This document shows, piece after piece, positions 33,252-41,505 of a stretch of 64,000 nt of DNA; position 1 is the first letter of the stretch, and every line of letters starts with the position of its first letter. This DNA is from Modestobacter italicus (GTDB lineage Bacteria > Actinomycetota > Actinomycetes > Mycobacteriales > Geodermatophilaceae): NCBI RefSeq assembly GCF_000306785.1, contig NC_017955.1, positions 5,394,001 through 5,458,000 on the forward strand, in the 5' to 3' direction. A program made the translations under genes and the position numbers. Under the pieces are notes generated by a model. It was not told where the DNA came from. It saw only the letters and a program-made list of their open reading frames with translations, and did not search any database.

Positions 33252-34054
33252 GCCGCCGCTCCGCGCCCGAGCCACCGGTCGCGCAGCAGCAGCAGCGTGC
33301 CGAGCGAGACGGCCAGCAGCACCAGCGACAGGACGATCGCCGCCTCGGGGTCGCGCTGCAGGGCGAGGTAGACCGCGAGCGGCATGGTCTGCGTGGTGCC
33401 CGGGAAGTTGCCGGCGAAGGTGATCGTCGCGCCGAACTCGCCGAGCGCGCGGGCCCAGCACAGCACGGCACCCGCGCCGATCCCCGGCGCGACCAGCGGC
33501 AGCGTGACCCGGCGGAACGCCGTCCACCGGTCGGCGCCGAGGGTGGCCGCGGCGTCCTCGAACCGGGCGTCGGCCGCCCGCAGCGCGCCCTCCACGCTGA
33601 TCACCAGGAACGGCATCGCCACGAACGTCTCGGCGATGACCACGGCCGCGGTGGTGAACGGGATGGTCACCCCGAGGTGCTCGTACAGCGGCCGGCCGAG
33701 GATGCCGGTGCGGCCGAGGACGAGGAACAGCGCGACCCCGCCGACCACCGGTGGCAGCACCAGCGGCACCGTCACCAGCGCGCGGAGCACCGCCCGGCCG
33801 CGGATCCGCGAGCGGGCCAGCACCCAGGCCAGCGGGACGCCGAGCACCAGCGACACCAGGGTGGCCAGCGTGGCCGAGAGCAGCGAGAGCCTCAGCGCCT
33901 GGCCGACCTCCGGCTGCGCCAGCTGCGGCCCGATCGACGACCACGGCGCCCGGACCACCAGCCCGAGCAGGGGCAGCACCAGGAAGGCGACCGCCAGCAG
34001 CGCCGGGACGAGCAGCGGCAGCGGCACCCCGCTACCCCGGGGTCGTCGCCTCAC
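33248..34054 (-). CDS. modB: molybdate ABC transporter permease
   Basis: A 268-residue integral membrane protein with about six helices and the EAA cytoplasmic loop AATLGADRWTAFRRVTLPLVAPGIGAGAVL that contacts ModC; VTVPLVLPPVVGGVALFLVLG is typical of ModB. GTG 34054 overlaps the modA stop by 4 bases. Forms the channel of the molybdate importer with ModC, fed by ModA. Confidence 0.92.
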   Translation of the reverse strand: MRRRPRGSGVPLPLLVPALLAVAFLVLPLLGLVVRAPWSSIGPQLAQPEVGQALRLSLLSATLATLVSLVLGVPLAWVLARSRIRGRAVLRALVTVPLVLPPVVGGVALFLVLGRTGILGRPLYEHLGVTIPFTTAAVVIAETFVAMPFLVISVEGALRAADARFEDAAATLGADRWTAFRRVTLPLVAPGIGAGAVLCWARALGEFGATITFAGNFPGTTQTMPLAVYLALQRDPEAAIVLSLVLLAVSLGTLLLLRDRWLGRGAAA

Positions 34055-34848
34055 GCCGGCGCGCGGAAGCCCGCGTCGGTGAGCGCCTGCTGCCCGGCGT
34101 CGGACTCCACCAGGTCCACGAACGCCTGCGCGGCCTCGGGGTTCGGTGCGGCCGCCATCGTGCAGATCGGGTAGTCGTTGACCTCCTGCTCGGCCTCCGG
34201 GAACGGGATCCCCTCGACGTCGGGGCCGGCCGCCTGCACGTCGGTGGCGTACACGAGCGCCGCGTCCACCTCACCGAGCTGCACCTTGGTGAGCGCCGCC
34301 TTGACGTCCTCCTCCTCGGTGTCGGGCTGCGGGGTGATCCCGGCGTCGGCGAAGACGGCGGCAGCCGCGGCACCGCACGGGACGTCGGCGGCGCAGACGG
34401 CGAGGGTGAGGTCGGCGTCGCCGAAGTCGGCCAGGCCGGTGACGTTGCCGGGGTTGCCCTCGGGCACCGCGATCTCCAGCACGTTCCCGGTGAAGACCGC
34501 CGGGTCGGCGGCCTGCAGACCGGCGTCGGTGACCACGGTCATCTGCTCGTCGTTGGCCGAGGCGAAGACGTCGGCCGGGGCGCCCTGGGTCAGCTGGGTG
34601 GCCAGCGCGGAGCTGCCGGCGAAGTTGAACTGGACCTGCAGTCCGGGGTTCTCGGCCATCAGCTGGTCGCCGAGGTCACCGAAGACGTCGGTCAGCGAGG
34701 CGGCGGCGAACACGGTCAGCGTGCCGCTCAACCCACCGCCCGGGCCCGACGACGTCGTCCCGACGGCGGTGTCCGACGCGGACCCCCCGCACCCGGTGAG
34801 CGCGAGCACGGCGACCGCCGGCAGCGCGAGCAGTGCCCGGGTCCTCAT
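34051..34848 (-). CDS. modA: molybdate-binding lipoprotein
   Basis: A 265-residue periplasmic-type binding protein exported as a lipoprotein: signal MRTRALLALPAVAVLALTG then lipobox cysteine. The binding fold shows LTVFAAASLTDVFGDLGDQL, FNFAGSSALATQLTQGAPAD and FASANDEQM, with the oxyanion-contact serines of ModA, ending DAGQQALTDAGFRAP. First intact gene of modABC. A decayed second copy lies immediately upstream. Confidence 0.92.
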   Translation of the reverse strand: MRTRALLALPAVAVLALTGCGGSASDTAVGTTSSGPGGGLSGTLTVFAAASLTDVFGDLGDQLMAENPGLQVQFNFAGSSALATQLTQGAPADVFASANDEQMTVVTDAGLQAADPAVFTGNVLEIAVPEGNPGNVTGLADFGDADLTLAVCAADVPCGAAAAAVFADAGITPQPDTEEEDVKAALTKVQLGEVDAALVYATDVQAAGPDVEGIPFPEAEQEVNDYPICTMAAAPNPEAAQAFVDLVESDAGQQALTDAGFRAPA

Positions 34849-34912
34849 CGCGTCCTCCGCTCCGGCGACCCACTCGCAGTGGACCGCGCCTGCGGCACCC
34901 TAGCCCACGAAC

Positions 34913-34928
34913 CTCCGCAGGTGCGGAG
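34913..34928. repeat. inverted repeat upstream of modA
   Basis: CTCCGCA, GG, TGCGGAG: perfect 7-bp arms, 65 bases before modA and immediately after the ancestral stop of the decayed modA copy. It could be the terminator of that copy or an operator for modABC; sequence alone does not decide. Confidence 0.45.
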
Positions 34929-34929
34929 C

Positions 34930-35394
34930 TCAAGGGAGGCTGAAGCCGGCGGCGGTGAGCGCCTACTGGCCGGTGTCGGACACCACCAGCTCGACGAAGG
35001 CCAGCGCGCCGTCCGGGTTGTCCGCGTCGGTGAGCAGGCAGATCGGGTAGCCGACGAGGTCCCCGGTCCGGTCGTCGGTGGCGAACAGGGTCGGCGCCGT
35101 GGAGACGATGCCGTTGTTCGTGACCACGTCCATCGGGTCGGTGCCGGCGGAGGCGAAGACGTCGGCCGGGGTGCCGTCGGTCAGCCGCTGCGCCAGGTCG
35201 GCGCTCGCACCGAACTCGAACTGCACGTCCAGCCCGGGGTGGTCGTCCTCCAGTTGCTGCCCGAGCTCGGTGAAGACGCCGGTGAGCGAGGTGTCCGCGA
35301 GCACGGTCACCGTGCCCGTGAGCTCCTCGGCCGGTGCGTCGTCCGCCCCGCAGCCGGCCAGGGCCAGGACAGCGAGGAAGGCCGCCCACCTCAC
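34930..35394 (-). pseudogene. decayed second modA copy (internal deletion plus amber stop)
   Basis: The 5' part is intact: GTG 35394, lipobox LALAGCGADD, VTVLADTSLTGVFTELGQQL, FGASADLAQRLTDGTPADVF and FASAGTDPMDVVTN. Then about 100 residues present in the neighbouring ModA are missing: the frame jumps from LFATDD to GYPICLLTDADNPDGALAFV without a frameshift. A TAG at 34963-34965 replaces the residue after SDTGQ, and the frame beyond it still reads ALTAAGFSLP to a TGA at 34930. The result is a 143-residue product lacking most of lobe 2 and the last helix. The start overlaps the upstream TOBE gene by a GTGA, so it was once an operon member. Confidence 0.85.
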
Positions 35395-35783
35395 GGCACG
35401 TCGACGCTGACCTGGGTGGCCTTCACGGTCGCGACCGCCCGGACGCCGACCTCCAGCCCGAGCTCGTCGGCGGCCTCGCGGGACATCAGCGAGACCAGCC
35501 GGAACGGGCCGGCCTGGATCTCGACCTGGGCCATCACGGTGTCCCGGACGACGCGGGTGACGATGCCGGTCAGCCGGTTGCGCGCCGACGACGACCGGGT
35601 GGTGCCCGGCTGCGGGGCCGGGTGCAGCTCGGTGGCGACCCGGGCCAGGTCGGCGCCGTCGACCTGCGCCGGGCCGGACTCGCGGGTGGCCGACAACCGG
35701 TCGCTGTCGATCCAGCGGCGGACGGTGTCGTCGCTGACGCCGAGCAGCGCGGCGGCCTCGGCGATCCGGTAGGAGGTGGGCAC
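35391..35783 (-). CDS. HTH-TOBE (Mop-domain) molybdate-responsive regulator or storage protein
   Basis: A 130-residue protein. Residues 4-50 are a MerR/excisionase-like HTH (YRIAEAAALLGVSDDTVRRWI); residues 65-130 are a Mop/TOBE oxyanion-binding domain (SARNRLTGIVTRVVRDTVMAQVEI to GVRAVATVKATQVSVDVP). This architecture is common in actinobacteria upstream of modABC and probably senses molybdate as a small ModE substitute. GTG 35783 chosen as the family-like start. First gene of the minus-strand mod run; divergent from recQ. Confidence 0.85.
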   Translation of the reverse strand: MPTSYRIAEAAALLGVSDDTVRRWIDSDRLSATRESGPAQVDGADLARVATELHPAPQPGTTRSSSARNRLTGIVTRVVRDTVMAQVEIQAGPFRLVSLMSREAADELGLEVGVRAVATVKATQVSVDVP

Positions 35784-35880
35784 GGGCGCACGGTAGTCCG
35801 CCGGGACGTGCGGTCTGCCCGGCCGACTCGGTGGTGCACGATCTGGTTTGTCGATCAGACCTCGCGGGCAGTCGGCGACG

Positions 35881-37608
35881 GTGACCGCGACCGCCCAGCG
35901 TCCCGCCGACCCAGCGACCAGGGCGGGTGGCTCGGCGTCCGTGCGCACCCGCCGGATCCGGGAGACCGCCCGCGACGTCCTGGGGTTCACCGAGTTCCGC
36001 CCGGGCCAGGAGGCCGCCATGCAGGCGGTGGCCGCGGGGCGGGACACCCTGGCCGTGCTGCCGTCGGGCGCGGGCAAGTCCGCCGTCTACACGGTCGCCG
36101 GCCTGCTGCTCGACGGCCCGGTCGTCATCGTCTCGCCGCTCATCGCCCTGCAGCGGGACCAGGTGCAGCGCCTGGAGGAGCTCGGCGAGGACGCGGTCGG
36201 CCGGGCCGCGGTGCTCAACTCCGGGCTGTCCGTGCTGGAGCACCAGGCGGTGCTCGACGGCATGCGTGACGGAACGGTCCGCTTCGTCTTCCTCGCCCCT
36301 GAGCAGCTGGCCAAGGCCGAGGTCGTCGAGGCCATCCGGACGGCGGCGCCGGCGCTGTTCGTCGTCGACGAGGCGCACTGCGTCTCCGCCTGGGGCCACG
36401 ACTTCCGCCCGGACTACCTGCGGCTCGGCGGCGTGGTGCAGCAGCTCGGGCACCCGACGGTGCTCGCCCTGACCGCCACCGCGGCCCCGCCGGTGCGGGC
36501 CGAGATCCTCGAGCGGCTGGAGATGGTGGACCCGGCGGTCGTCGTCGCCGGGTTCGACCGCCCGGAGATCCGGCTGGAGGTGGAGCACCACGCCGACGCC
36601 CAGCACAAGCACCACGCTGTCCTGGACAAGGTCTCCGACCTGAGCCGGCAGGGCATCGGCATCCTCTACAGCGCCACCCGCAAGGGCACCGAGGAGTTCG
36701 CCGCGGCGCTCACCGGCCGGGGGCTGCGCGCGGCGGCGTACCACGCGGGGCTGAAGAAGAGCGACCGCGAGGAGGTGCAGCGGCAGTTCATGGACGACGA
36801 GCTGGACGTCGTCGTGGCCACCACCGCGTTCGGCATGGGCATCGACAAGCCGGAGACCCGCTTCGTCGTGCACGCCGAGCCCGCCGACTCGGTCGACAGC
36901 TACTACCAGGAGATCGGCCGGGCCGGGCGGGACGGTGAGCCGGCGGTCGCCGTCCTGGTCTACCGGCAGGAGGACCTGGGCATCCGGAAGTTCTTCGCCG
37001 CCGGCGCACCCGCCGAGGAGGAGCTGCAGGAGGTCGCCGGCCTGGTGCAGGCCGGTGTCGCGGCCGGCCTGGACGGCGTCGACGTCACCGAGCTCCGCGA
37101 GGAGACCGGCCGGCCCGCCACCCCGCTGGTGCGCGACCTCAACCTGCTCGAGCAGGCCGGGGCCGTCGTCCTCGACGACGAGGGGGCGGCGTCCCCGGCA
37201 CCGGGCGGACCCGCGCCCGGGGAGGCCGCCGCGGCCGCCCGCGAGCTCGCCGAGCAGCACACCAAGGTCGACGAGAGCCGGATCGAGATGATGCGCGGCT
37301 ACGCCGACACCACCCGCTGCCGCCGCCAGTACCTGCTCGGCTACTTCGGCGAGCAGCTCGACGAGCCCTGCGGCAACTGCGACACCTGCAGCTCGGGCTC
37401 CGCCTACGAGCACGCCGACGCGGTCGTCGACGGCGACCACCCGTTCCCGGTGGACACCGCCGTCGAGCACACCGAGTGGGGCCCCGGCGTGGTCATGCGG
37501 CACGAGGAGGACCGCGTCGTCGTCCTGTTCGAGCAGGTCGGCTACAAGACGCTGGGGCTGCAGGCCGTGCTGGACCACCACCTGCTCAGCGAGCGCGCCG
37601 GGGCCTGA
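35881..37608 (+). CDS. RecQ-family ATP-dependent DNA helicase
   Basis: A 575-residue 3'-5' DNA helicase. Motif 0 [13 protein letters not shown], Walker [40 protein letters not shown] (motif II and aromatic loop), [11 protein letters not shown], and C-terminal [36 protein letters not shown] zinc-binding domain ([14 protein letters not shown] then CGNCDTC) follows. The HRDC domain is absent; the C-terminus is a short [20 protein letters not shown] module seen in actinobacterial RecQ-like proteins. GTG 35881 is preferred; a TTG at 35848 is possible. Confidence 0.9.
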
Positions 37609-37612
37609 GGCC

Positions 37613-39112
37613 TCAGCAGCGGACCCAGTCGCTCCAGCCCTCGCCCTCCTCGCGGCGCTGCAGCAGCGCCCCGTCCGCGGTCACCGCGAGCAGGACCTGG
37701 CCGCGGTCGGGTCCGGGCCCGGCGGCGACCGAGACGACGCGGAGGCCGTCGGGGGCGCTCATCGGCTGCCAGTCCGACCACCCGCCGTCCGGGCCGGACC
37801 TGCTGTGCTGCAGGCCGCCGTCGGACCGGACCACCCACCGCTCCAGCGAGGTCGGCCCGACGGTGGACAGGGCGACGGCCCGGACCCGGTCGACCGGCAG
37901 CCCCTCCCACCCGGACCACCCGCCGGACCCGTCGTGCCGGGACCAGGCGCAGCCGGCGGTGTCGGAGACGACGAGCTCGGTGCCGCCGTCGCCGCGCGGG
38001 GCGGCGGCCACGGAGGTGACCCTCCCGGGGGCCTCCATCCGGGCCCACTCCGACGCGCCCTGCGGGCCGACCTGCTGGTGCCACAGCTGCCCGTCGTCCT
38101 GCACGACCCAGCGCGCCAGCCGGCCGGCGCCGGCGGAGGTCGCGACGCTGCGGGCGGTGCCGTCGAAGGGCAGCCGCTCCCACGCGCCCCACGCCCGCCC
38201 CTGCCCCTGCCGGGCCCACAGCCGGCCGTCGAGGTCGGCGACCAGCAGCCGGCCGTCGCCCTCGGCCGGGGAGCCGGCGCTGACCGAGGCGGCCAGCGCA
38301 CCCTCGGGCAGCTCGCTCGGCTCGCCGTCCGACAGGAGGCCGCCGTCGCGGTCGACGGACCAGGTCTGCAGCTGCCCCGGGGCCGGCGACCACAGGTCCA
38401 CGACCCGGCGGACGCCGTGCGTCTCGGGCCGGGCGTCCTCGCCGTCGGTGGCCAGCGAGGGGAGGTCCAGCCGCCACCGGCACTGGTCGGCGACCCACTG
38501 GTCGTGGGTGATCACGATGACCGGGATCTGCCGGGCGGCCTGGCGCAGCGCGTCGAGGACGTCGCGCGTCGTCGCCACGTCGAGGTTGGCCGTCGGCTCG
38601 TCGGCGACCACCAGCCCGACGTCGCGGGCCAGCATCCGGGCGATGGCCACCCGCTGCTGCTGGCCGCCGGACAGCTCGGCGATGAGCCGGTCGGCCATGC
38701 CGGCCAGCCCCATCGCCTCCAGCGCCCGCTCCGCCCGGCCGGCCCGCTCCGCCTGCGGGATCTCGGCGTCGCCCATGTCCAGCAGCAGCATGTCCCAGGG
38801 GGTGTAGTCCGGGAGCAGGCCGTAGCCCTGCGGGATGTAGCCGATCCGCCGGCGGTGCAGCTGCCGGTCGGCGTCCCGCCCCTCCTCCACGACCGCGGAC
38901 CACTCCTGCCCGAACACCCGCAGCGACCCCTCGTAGGGCGACTGCTCCTGACCGCCGAGGAGGGCGCCGAAGGTGGACTTGCCTGCGCCGGACTCGCCCA
39001 TCACGGCCACCAGGCCGGGCTCGGACACGGAGAACTCGTCGACGGCGAGCAGCAGCGGGCCGCCCGGGTAGCGGAAGCGGAGCCCGACGACCTCGACCAC
39101 CGGGGCGGTCAC
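37613..39112 (-). CDS. ABC ATPase fused to a C-terminal lectin-like repeat (beta-propeller) domain
   Basis: A 499-residue protein. Residues 5-225 are a LolD/MacB-type ABC ATPase: Walker A VMGESGAGKSTFGALLGG, signature LSGGQQQRVAIARML, Walker B VVADEPTANLD, H-loop VITHDQ. From about 240 to the end are five to six repeats of 45-50 residues, each with a strand like LVADLDGRLW and a tryptophan motif (WGAWERLP, GGWSGWEGLP, GGWSDWQPM, GWSDWVRC). This is the pattern of PLL/tachylectin-like beta-propellers. No signal or membrane segment links the two, so the repeats should be cytosolic. GTG 39112 overlaps the permease stop by 4 bases. I know no described ABC ATPase with this tail. Confidence 0.82.
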   Translation of the reverse strand: MTAPVVEVVGLRFRYPGGPLLLAVDEFSVSEPGLVAVMGESGAGKSTFGALLGGQEQSPYEGSLRVFGQEWSAVVEEGRDADRQLHRRRIGYIPQGYGLLPDYTPWDMLLLDMGDAEIPQAERAGRAERALEAMGLAGMADRLIAELSGGQQQRVAIARMLARDVGLVVADEPTANLDVATTRDVLDALRQAARQIPVIVITHDQWVADQCRWRLDLPSLATDGEDARPETHGVRRVVDLWSPAPGQLQTWSVDRDGGLLSDGEPSELPEGALAASVSAGSPAEGDGRLLVADLDGRLWARQGQGRAWGAWERLPFDGTARSVATSAGAGRLARWVVQDDGQLWHQQVGPQGASEWARMEAPGRVTSVAAAPRGDGGTELVVSDTAGCAWSRHDGSGGWSGWEGLPVDRVRAVALSTVGPTSLERWVVRSDGGLQHSRSGPDGGWSDWQPMSAPDGLRVVSVAAGPGPDRGQVLLAVTADGALLQRREEGEGWSDWVRC

Positions 39113-39687
39113 TGCACGGCCTGCATGGTCTTGGGCGACTTGCCGGCGGCCAGCCAGGCGGGGATCGCCGTCGCGACCCCGGCCAGCAGGATCGTGATCG
39201 GGAACGAGGCGAACAGCGAGACGGCGTTGAAGGTGACCGGCAGCACCGTGAGGTCCCGGATGGCGAACCCGCCCAGGACGCCGAGCGCCTCGCCGACCAG
39301 CGCGCCGCCCACCACCGGCGGCGTCATCTCCTTCATGAAGTCGGTCACCAGCCGGCCGCGGAACACCCCGCTCTGCCGGCGGATGCCGATCTCGCGCTTG
39401 CGCGACTGCATGAGCACCCAGCCGACGGTCGCCGTGGCGGCGGCCGTCTGGATGATCATGGCCGAGGTCACCGCCACGGTCAGCGCGCCGAGGATGGCCT
39501 CGATCAGGCCGACGTCGAGGAAGCCCACGTCCTGCAGCTGCGGCACGTCCAGGTCGGCCTGGATCCGGTCGGAGACGCCGTAGGAGATCGACATCAGCAG
39601 GACGGCGAAGGCGACGCCCATGGCCACCGACAGCCCGGAGACGAGTCGCCACGGCCCGGAGCGGGCGGGCCGGGGGGAACGGGTCAT
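39109..39687 (-). CDS. reduced FtsX/MacB-type ABC permease
   Basis: A 192-residue membrane protein with four helices: about 14-34, 58-85, 125-150 and 160-182. The cytoplasmic coupling loop RKREIGIRRQSGVFRGRLV is the hallmark of FtsX/LolC/MacB permeases. The extracellular domain between helices 1 and 2, usually 100-250 residues, is only about 20 residues (DRIQADLDVPQLQDVG). It is coupled by overlap to the ATPase-propeller gene, forming a two-gene type VII-like ABC system. Function could be mechanotransmission or lipid extraction; no substrate can be named. Confidence 0.8.
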   Translation of the reverse strand: MTRSPRPARSGPWRLVSGLSVAMGVAFAVLLMSISYGVSDRIQADLDVPQLQDVGFLDVGLIEAILGALTVAVTSAMIIQTAAATATVGWVLMQSRKREIGIRRQSGVFRGRLVTDFMKEMTPPVVGGALVGEALGVLGGFAIRDLTVLPVTFNAVSLFASFPITILLAGVATAIPAWLAAGKSPKTMQAVQ

Positions 39688-39717
39688 GCGCGCAGCACTC
39701 CAGGGTCGGGCCGGACG

Positions 39718-39741
39718 GGATGATCAACTACGGATGATCAA
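39718..39741. repeat. direct repeat in divergent promoter region
   Basis: GGATGATCAA occurs at 39718-39727 and 39732-39741 (14-base phase); a partial copy GATGATC lies at 39798-39804. The repeats sit in the 162-base gap between the permease and carbamoyltransferase genes, so they may bind a shared regulator. Confidence 0.5.
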
Positions 39742-39849
39742 GATAGCCACAGTTCCGTCCGAACGGGGTTCGTCCTGCGCCGTCCCTGATCCCAGGTGAT
39801 GATCTAGGTCTGACCGGGCGGCCAGCGCCCGGCTGATTGGAGCGCGCAC

Positions 39850-41505
39850 GTGAAGGTGCTGGGCATCAACGCCATCTACCACGACCCGTCGGCCGCCCTG
39901 GTCGTCGACGGCAGGGTCGTGGCCGCCGCCGAGGAGGAGCGGTTCAGCCGGCGCAAGCACGGCAAGCGCCCGCTGCCGTGGAGCGCCTGGGAGCTGCCCG
40001 AGCTGTCCGCGGCCTGGTGCCTGGCGGAGGCCGGGATCCGGCCCGAGGAGCTCGACGCGGTCGCCTACTCCTTCGACCCGGCGCTGATGGGCACCCCGGA
40101 GGACTCCGGCCTCTTCGACGACGGCGACGTCATGCGCAAGCGGTACGCCGAGATGGCGCCGGACTTCCTGGCCCACGCGCTGCCCGGCCTCGACCCGGCG
40201 AAGGTCCGCTTCGTCAAGCACCACGTGGCCCACGCCGCCTCGGCCGGGCTGGCCGCGCCGCAGCGGGACAACTCGGTGCTGGTGCTCGACGGCCGCGGCG
40301 AGGCGCACAGCCACCTGGCCGGCCGGTACGTCGACGGGCAGCTGGAGGTGCTCGCCGGCCAGGCGCTGCCGCACTCGCTGGGGCTGATGTACGAGGACCT
40401 CACCGACCACCTGGGCTTCCTGCGCAGCTCCGACGAGTTCAAGGTCATGGCGATGGCCTCCTACGGCAAGCCGCGCTTCGCCGGCGAGCTGTCGGAGCTG
40501 ATCCGCGCCACCGGCGACGGCGGCTTCCGGACGGAGAAGATCGACTACACCGAGTTCGCCCCCCGGCTGGGCAAGGGCGACGCCTGGACCGAGGACCACG
40601 CCGACCTGGCCGCCAGCGTGCAGCAGCGCCTCGAGGAGGTGCTGGTCGACCTGGCCCGCTGGGTGCACGAGCAGACCGGCGACCGGGTCCTCACCCTCGC
40701 CGGCGGCACGGCGCTGAACTGCGTGGCCAACACCCGCATCCTCGCCGAGAGCCCGTTCGAGCAGGTCTGGGTGCAGCCGGCCGCCGGCGACTCCGGGACG
40801 GCGCTCGGCGCCGCCCTGCACGTGGCCCGCGAGCTCGGCGAGGACACCCAGCCCATGCCCGGCGCGGCGCTGGGCCGCGGGTGGAGCGACGCGGAGATCG
40901 AGCAGGTCCTCACCACCGCGGCCATCGACTACGAGCGCCCCGACGACGTCGCCGAGGCCGTCGCCGAGGTGCTGGCCGACAACGGCATCGTCGCCTGGTT
41001 CCAGGGCCGCAGCGAGTACGGCCCGCGCGCGCTGGGCCACCGCTCGCTGCTGGCCCACCCCGGCTTCGAGGCCAACCTCGAGCGGATGAACGACGTGAAG
41101 GGCCGCGAGCAGTTCCGGCCGGTCGCGCCCATGGTGCTGCTGGAGAAGGCGGCGGAGATCTTCAGCCGCGGCCCGATCCCCTCGCCGTACATGCTCTTCG
41201 TGCACGACGTGGCCCCGGAGTGGCGGGACCGCATCCCCACCGTCACCCACGTCGACGGGACGGCGCGGATCCAGACGATCGACCCGGAGGTCTCCCCCCT
41301 GGTCCACCGGATGATCTCCGCCTTCGAGCGGCGCACCGGGCTGCCCGTGGTGGTCAACACCAGCCTCAACACCGCCGGCCGGCCGATGGTCGACGACCCG
41401 CGGGACGCGCTGGAGTGCTTCGGCTCGGCCCCGGTCGACCTGCTCGCCATCGGCCCGTTCGTCGTCCGCCGGCCGCGGGCGACCCCGCGGCCGGCCGCCA
41501 GGTGA
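39850..41505 (+). CDS. NodU/CmcH-family O-carbamoyltransferase
   Basis: A 551-residue enzyme transferring a carbamoyl group from carbamoyl phosphate to a hydroxyl, usually of a sugar or antibiotic. The N-terminal Kae1-like domain shows VLGINAIYHDPSAALVVDG, AAAEEERFSRRKHGKRPLP, VKHHVAHAASA and LVLDGRGEAHSHLAGRY. The C-terminal part has FQGRSEYGPRALGHRSLLAHP, REQFRPVAPMVL and NTSLNTAGRPMVDDPRDALE. Length is typical. GTG 39850 with GGAG 10 bases upstream. No glycosyltransferase or antibiotic cluster is adjacent; divergent from the ATPase-propeller/permease pair, which might use its product. Confidence 0.9.
   Translation: MKVLGINAIYHDPSAALVVDGRVVAAAEEERFSRRKHGKRPLPWSAWELPELSAAWCLAEAGIRPEELDAVAYSFDPALMGTPEDSGLFDDGDVMRKRYAEMAPDFLAHALPGLDPAKVRFVKHHVAHAASAGLAAPQRDNSVLVLDGRGEAHSHLAGRYVDGQLEVLAGQALPHSLGLMYEDLTDHLGFLRSSDEFKVMAMASYGKPRFAGELSELIRATGDGGFRTEKIDYTEFAPRLGKGDAWTEDHADLAASVQQRLEEVLVDLARWVHEQTGDRVLTLAGGTALNCVANTRILAESPFEQVWVQPAAGDSGTALGAALHVARELGEDTQPMPGAALGRGWSDAEIEQVLTTAAIDYERPDDVAEAVAEVLADNGIVAWFQGRSEYGPRALGHRSLLAHPGFEANLERMNDVKGREQFRPVAPMVLLEKAAEIFSRGPIPSPYMLFVHDVAPEWRDRIPTVTHVDGTARIQTIDPEVSPLVHRMISAFERRTGLPVVVNTSLNTAGRPMVDDPRDALECFGSAPVDLLAIGPFVVRRPRATPRPAAR

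Follow-up and report, generated by a model that had tools for sequence, protein, structure and literature searches.

An ABC ATPase with a predicted PLL-type propeller tail and a Porter-less FtsX-fold permease partner in Modestobacter italicus

The closest described relatives of the locus analyzed here are the type VII ABC systems MacB, LolCDE and FtsEX, which share with it the type of ATPase and an FtsX-fold permease with a coupling region. A passage of one review states that, as far as its authors are aware, a Porter domain is present in all type VII members (PMC5985334), and according to a 2025 paper YbbAP has two periplasmic domains, the first of which is missing from BceAB (PMC12646458). 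In our literature search we found no description of a type VII member devoid of any extracytoplasmic domain. A second point of comparison is provided by MetN and ModC, in which, according to passages of PMC10710835, C-terminal domains block transport on ligand binding; the same passages describe these systems as importers whose regulatory domains have other folds and bind the substrate. The PLL lectins are a third, described in a section of PMC6943638 as a family of seven-bladed propellers. In the related lectin PHL, the text of PMC5584973 that we used describes galactose-type sites made of Arg, Glu and a stacking Trp, and fucose-type sites made of two Trp and a Thr, the latter also holding methionine side chains in crystals. 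Finally, passages of PMC8195603 propose lectin-fold intracellular sensors for EAD-linked conflict systems, and passages of PMC7159879 place beta-propellers in the conflict systems treated there; word searches returned no "ABC" in the former and neither "ABC transporter" nor "ABC ATPase" in the latter.

Our window, the whole stretch of 64,000 nucleotides that was analyzed, comes from a genome consisting of a single contig of 5,575,517 bases. On its minus strand, positions 37613..39112 encode a protein of 499 residues that begins with a GTG start at 39112, a start common to its homologues, and ends with a stop at 37613-37615; the plus-strand frame over the same interval is an unrelated shadow of this gene. 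The protein comprises an ATPase (nucleotide-binding) domain (residues 1-225, 38438..39112, minus strand), a linker (residues 226-240, 38393..38437, minus strand) in which 5 of 15 positions are invariant across eight fusions, and a putative six-bladed PLL-type propeller (residues 230-499, 37616..38425, minus strand) recognized by self-similarity, a blade HMM and profile homology. An initial annotation of this DNA, which specified no strand, had described an ATPase running in one frame into a Trp-rich tail, and we confirm that the two are encoded as a single protein; both repeats that it quoted, GGWSGWEGLP and GGWSDWQPM, are present in the translated tail.

The idea that a sequencing error merged two genes can be dismissed with near certainty. 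Protein searches yielded seven fusions beyond the window's own; the resulting eight proteins are all distinct, two come from separate genomes, and they carry the same fusion at an identical junction. The reading frame is open across the fusion in all eight, GC3 of the gene is 0.96-1.0 over its full length, and the sole internal start within residues 200-280 is the GTG at 238. The number of distinct proteins, the even GC3 and the single internal start indicate that the fusion is not a frameshift or assembly artefact. These searches covered approximately 5.8 billion sequences, with only the 8000 candidates having the most short words in common being scored, and more divergent fusions may have been missed.

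The ATPase domain matches Pfam ABC_tran at 6.4e-27. We take residues G39-T47 to be the Walker A motif, Q95 the Q-loop, LSGGQ at 147-151 the signature, the segment ending in D171-E172 the Walker B motif, D178 the D-loop and H203 the H-loop. Every motif is present and intact, and the related PDB chains are those of LolD, MacB and FtsE, in agreement with the earlier description of a complete LolD/MacB-type ATPase. Among the best NCBIfam models were bacteriocin exporter, FtsE, DevA, LolD and MacB; because all of them fell far below cut-off, we assign the ATPase no subfamily name.

The tail is strongly repetitive: aligning one half against the other gave a score of 165, compared with 38.9 +/- 6.9 in 300 shuffles (maximum 71), and the ATPase half, used as a control, scored 36 against 27.2 +/- 5.2 when shuffled. 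Searched against the PDB, the window's tail alone gave four matches with E no higher than 10, the best at 3e-7. A profile built from five ABC tails gave seven (best 2e-17), and a mixed profile of ABC, EAD1 and kinase tails gave nine lectin-type matches, the best at 1.6e-28, along with two weak ones of other kinds. The named matches of the tail profiles were PLL, PLL2, PLL3, PHL or BP39L; 8q82, 8q83 and 8q7u, named in the PDB only after a Photorhabdus genome record, are taken to be PLL-family lectins. A blade HMM, seeded partly from the same tails, placed six blades in all ten tails tested. Blade 1 is weak, with E of 0.16 in the window's copy and 0.34 in P0003, and it carries a 10-residue deletion in the window's copy that is common to P0003 and P0004. 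The linker strand VRRVVDL probably closes the propeller ring. On the strength of this homology, the PLL-type propeller proposed in the initial annotation is upheld, and we regard it as confirmed at the level of sequence that the tail is a six-bladed propeller homologous to PLL/PHL lectins.

Compared with the PLL/PHL/CV39L-type lectins of Photorhabdus and relatives, the tail has homologous blades with the W-motif, but six of them rather than seven, and it sits behind a cytosolic ATPase. The window's tail has no match to the NCBIfam beta-propeller lectin models at E up to 1, which places this copy among the more decayed ones. The tails of P0008 (M. lapidis) and P0010 do match such models, at 73-86 bits against cut-offs of 200 and 350, and they alone match the CV39L model, again below cut-off.

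The partner gene, at 39109..39687 on the minus strand, encodes an FtsX-fold permease of 192 residues, identified by Pfam FtsX (5.3e-11) and hydropathy. Its end overlaps the ATPase start by 4 nt (GTGA), and the C-terminal part of the protein aligns to a MacB chain at 9.1e-5. Averaged hydropathy runs span residues 19-33, 61-86, 128-150 and 152-175; because the last two are one residue apart, four helices are likely but not proven. Between the second and third hydrophobic segments there is a basic region, and RKREIGIRRQSGV is part of the coupling region. Approximately 25 residues separate the first two segments, at the point where MacB-type permeases carry an extracytoplasmic domain, and an insertion after the first segment was found in none of the 18 aligned permeases, four of which begin late as annotated. 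Unlike MacB, LolCDE and FtsEX, then, the window's permease has no extracytoplasmic Porter domain, no adaptor gene adjoins it, and a propeller is present on the ATPase in the cytosol. In other words, the extra domain of this system lies inside rather than outside.

We found 22 homologues of the permease. The permease gene and the fusion are adjacent in the window and in G088 (M. lapidis), and the fusion and permease of P0006/P0020 and of P0010/P0033 were taken as together because the lengths of their contigs agree. For two homologues on long contigs, P0027 and P0032 of Modestobacter sp. SYSU DS0875, no tail-bearing ATPase was found among the protein-search matches, so that some relatives may work without a propeller.

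An ABC ATPase with an added C-terminal domain is known already; what is new here is the combination with a propeller and with a Porter-less partner. Open-licence PMC full text, as far as we searched it, yielded no ABC ATPase bearing a PLL-type propeller, and the protein and literature searches that we made did not turn up many described ABC ATPases with the same tail. The Porter-less 192-residue permease would be a minimal system in which to study the need for a Porter domain.

The ABC ATPase with its propeller is probably a sensor or a docking module that faces the cell interior. More specifically, judging from sequence, we consider it an evenly balanced question whether the propeller acts as a cytosolic regulatory or sensor domain on a minimal MacB-like ABC machine. 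The two genes would encode this minimal MacB/FtsX-fold machine, with two permeases and two ATPases forming a homodimer and two propellers hanging in the cytosol below the ATPase dimer, in the position of the MetN and ModC regulatory domains. The propeller would bind a cytosolic partner or ligand, most likely through Trp pockets in blades 2-4 and not through the lost galactose-type sites, and binding could alter the ability of the ATPase dimer to close, thereby turning the membrane machine on or off. Because there is no outside domain, the output would probably be movement within the membrane, for example to pull out or extrude a lipid-like molecule, or to signal, and not an action on a wall enzyme or an outer adaptor. 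As in MetN and ModC, the extra domain follows directly on the C-terminal side of the ATPase, and a position below the dimer is likely; the fusion differs from both in fold, transporter type and ligand. Should the propeller indeed regulate the ATPase, C-terminal control of ABC machines would have gained a new fold, and a MacB-like system would be receiving its input from inside the cell instead of from outside.

To compare binding sites, we mapped the PHL sites onto the blades through HMMER alignment, and the equivalences given here are those of a blade alignment, not of a structure. In the window's copy, none of the 5 aligned blades has the galactose-type Trp, blade 1 has lost the segment and has no Trp there, and no blade combines Arg, Glu and Trp. 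The count is also zero in P0003, P0004, P0005 and P0007 (5 or 6 blades aligned in each, some partly). By comparison, the galactose-type Trp is kept in one blade of P0006, four of M. lapidis and five of P0010, and in six of six blades of the EAD1 tail (P0011) and the kinase tail (P0012).

A fucose-type Trp pair is kept in blade 2 (W299/W311, equivalent to PHL W199/W214; 38180..38218, minus strand), in blade 3 (W344/W356; 38045..38083, minus strand) and in blade 4, where T385 joins W390/W402 in the best-kept fucose-type site (37907..37960, minus strand). All six Trp are invariant in the eight fusions in the full alignment, which restores the pair in blade 2 of P0007 where the blade model had clipped it. 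Blade 4 is the only one in the window's copy with a Thr beside the pair, at 385, a position occupied by Ser in P0010. Two points tell against a special meaning of the pair. The EAD1 tail has it in only two of six blades and the kinase tail in one of six. The second Trp of each pair (the W214 equivalent) belongs to a WSxW blade motif found in most blades, and the conservation of this residue may thus be structural and not functional.

The initial annotation had suggested that the tail could sense an intracellular glycan or protein ligand. As a glycan sensor, the cytosolic propeller might bind a sugar-nucleotide, a lipid-linked sugar or a glycoprotein and gate the transporter in response, a reading that we consider distinctly unlikely. 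It is consistent with the homology to sugar-binding PLL/PHL lectins, with the Trp pair in blades 2-4 and Thr or Ser at 385 in blade 4 of all eight fusions, and with the M. lapidis and P0010 tails, which combine their lectin-model matches below cut-off with galactose-type Trp in four and five of six blades. However, the window's copy is among those with no galactose-type Trp, it lacks the blade 1 segment, and it matches none of the lectin models, while the methionine held by the PHL fucose-type sites means that Trp pockets need not signify sugar. The residues thus support glycan sensing only in part: the fusion tail has the fucose-type Trp pair in common with PLL/PHL lectins, and the window's copy does not have the galactose-type site.

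The tail also stands apart in its rate of change. Between the two genomes in which the fusion was found, G000 and G088, omega is 0.28 (bootstrap 0.18-0.43) for the ATPase and 0.70 (0.52-0.94) for the tail, compared with 0.23 for the permease and 0.25 and 0.31 for the flanking genes; blade by blade, the estimate varies between 0.49 and 1.16, and the intervals are wide. These estimates come from one genome pair, a simple method and saturated GC3, and it is the contrast that counts, not the values. Across the eight fusions, 149 of 225 positions are invariant in the ATPase and 86 of 259 in the tail. The sequence comparison suggests that the tail evolves faster than the ATPase, a pattern that fits a changing partner or ligand and a relaxation of selection alike. 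The weak constraint on the tail and the partial loss of blade 1 in the window's copy both count against a regulatory role.

A changing partner surface is what might be expected of a docking scaffold, in which the propeller brings a client protein, or else a second complex, to the transporter and no ligand controls gating. Propellers often serve as platforms for interaction, and the 86 tail positions remain invariant even though the galactose-type sites have been lost. On the other hand, no client gene is linked to the pair: the flanking genes, for a RecQ-type helicase (convergent; 35848..37608, plus strand) and a NodU-type carbamoyltransferase (divergent; 39850..41505, plus strand), occur in 22 of 23 genomes of the genus whether or not the pair is there. 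Moreover, the three conserved Trp pairs resemble pockets more than a general surface, although part of this conservation may belong to the blade framework. We judge docking without gating to be possible but not probable.

The alternative of relaxation would make the tail a decaying passenger, a domain that was once useful and is now less constrained, borne by an accessory transporter that is disappearing as well. The contrast in omega arises at equal dS, blade 1 has the 10-residue deletion, and the history of the locus points in the same direction. The interval between the RecQ and carbamoyltransferase genes (37609-39849 here) is variable in the genus: by sizes derived from gene coordinates, of 22 genomes, 2 have the pair there, 13 have just 91-168 nt and 7 have a longer stretch of DNA. 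Because the pair is absent from 20 of the 22 genomes with both flanks, it is dispensable, which likewise counts against a regulatory role. In one close relative, G087, a stretch corresponding to 37707..39764 is missing from an alignment that matches on both sides, a deletion of approximately 2.06 kb. This genome retains a 58-nt remnant of the last blade at 83% identity, with a score of 68 against at most 33 in 100 shuffles, and the scar documents one loss of the pair; a remnant was sought at nine other empty sites, of 13 in all, and none was found. Against decay, omega of the tail stays below 1 (the bootstrap upper bound is 0.94), the six Trp of blades 2-4 are invariant in eight proteins, and the frame is open in every one of them. 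We therefore hold decay to be improbable. Between G000 and G088, dS is similar throughout, 0.42-0.43 in ATPase, permease and tail and 0.36 and 0.41 in the flanks, which would be expected of a pair resident about as long as its neighbours. By eye, the other genes seen in the RecQ-carbamoyltransferase interval include PilZ, hybrid histidine kinase, GGDEF-EAL and HNH.

The usual setting of such propellers was said in the initial annotation to be secreted, and our surveys bear this out in that they often ride on secreted enzymes. Surveys of the class and the phylum found propeller matches in 30 of 394 and 21 of 396 genomes, respectively, and gave 61 propeller frames in 56 loci, with an ATPase only on the window's own. 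We scanned 43 of the 61 frames with Pfam after excluding 18 by hand as duplicates, pieces, weak matches or another type of propeller. Among the best 25 of 33 families, secreted hydrolase domains were represented by Matrixin (4), SLT (3), Astacin (2), M23 (2) and S8 (2), and cytosolic domains by ABC (1, the window's own), Pkinase (2) and EAD1 (1).

A PLL-type C-terminal propeller is thus shared by the fusion with several other cytosolic proteins: an EAD1 protein of Frankia (P0011), Ser/Thr kinases (P0012, L014 and L015) and a STAND-like NTPase (L133/P0038) found in the order search. "STAND-like" here refers to matches to NF040586 (7e-26) and AAA_16 (2e-5), both below cut-off, together with our own reading. 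Apart from ABC proteins, the EAD1 protein and the kinase P0012 are what the M. lapidis tail matches best. They differ from the fusion in having other effector or switch domains and no known membrane partner, and in keeping galactose-type Trp in six of six blades but the fucose-type pair in only two and one. The complete set of galactose-type Trp in P0012 makes this kinase a stronger candidate than the window's fusion for sensing sugar in the cytosol. By eye, the gene contexts of the EAD1 and STAND-like proteins showed no obvious system, and no obvious effector gene adjoins that of the STAND-like protein. To these cytosolic proteins with PLL-type propellers, whose existence favours the regulatory reading of the fusion's tail, the fusion adds a membrane machine.

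We considered whether the cytosolic propellers form a single clade and rejected this, since the common ancestor of the ABC, EAD1, kinase and STAND tails spans all 70 tips of the propeller tree. The ABC tails themselves form one clade (9 tips, 0.999). The tree was rooted at its midpoint. A length filter had removed 15 of 85 sequences, the two Frankiaceae kinase loci among them, one protein is represented by copies at several tips, and a tree built on repeats carries little weight in either direction. As the cytosolic tails are not united in it, the propeller was more probably recruited several times than passed down in a single sensor lineage. A bolder interpretation, which we think unlikely, is that the locus encodes a type VII machine turned inside out: the Porter domain was dropped, a lectin-derived sensor was attached inside, and the membrane responds to a cytosolic signal in the form of a glycoconjugate or hydrophobic molecule that is foreign or out of place. 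If that were true, the same type of propeller, attached separately to EAD1, kinase and STAND-like proteins, would be an intracellular sensor that actinobacteria reuse and that is coupled in this locus to an effector in the membrane.

As the initial annotation suspected, the fusion is rare. It is carried by 2 of 112 genomes of the family (2 of the 96 near-complete ones), with the permease in the same two, and in the samples searched we did not find it outside Modestobacter-type sequences. In a survey of the order, 11 of 397 genomes matched, one of the matches without a locus, and the fusion was confined to G000 and G088. The class, phylum and order samples overlap, each being an even draw from a larger group; mostly six first-look candidates were scored per genome, 13 in the family search, and further places per genome gave no locus. 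Apart from the fusion, nothing in the source genome matches the tail profile at 1e-6. Plasmids gave no match to the fusion at 1e-30, and viral contigs none for the permease or the tail. Phages gave 73 records at 1e-15, none with at least 80% query coverage, and the five listed reach at most residues 1-259.

We also considered and rejected a defence island, as the interval is mostly near-empty in the genus and its immediate flanks are the RecQ and carbamoyltransferase genes. No known defence or effector genes were among the immediate neighbours checked. The PADLOC matches of the fusion (mad3 at 1.2e-26 and two weaker) fall within residues 19-212, that is, in the ATPase; the permease had none.

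Scans for promoters, terminators and RNA families found nothing in the region, and its repeats are short and chance-like only. Two TGATCA motifs, 14 nt apart, lie at 39721-39740 of the window, upstream of the permease gene, and G088 has two TGATCA within 170 nt upstream of its permease. Farther away, on the minus strand, there is a full gene for a lipoprotein that by eye is ModA-like, of the molybdate-binding type (34051-34848), and a second, shorter ModA-like frame of approximately 140-150 residues that ends near 34960 (region 34051-35418) and looks like a truncated duplicate.
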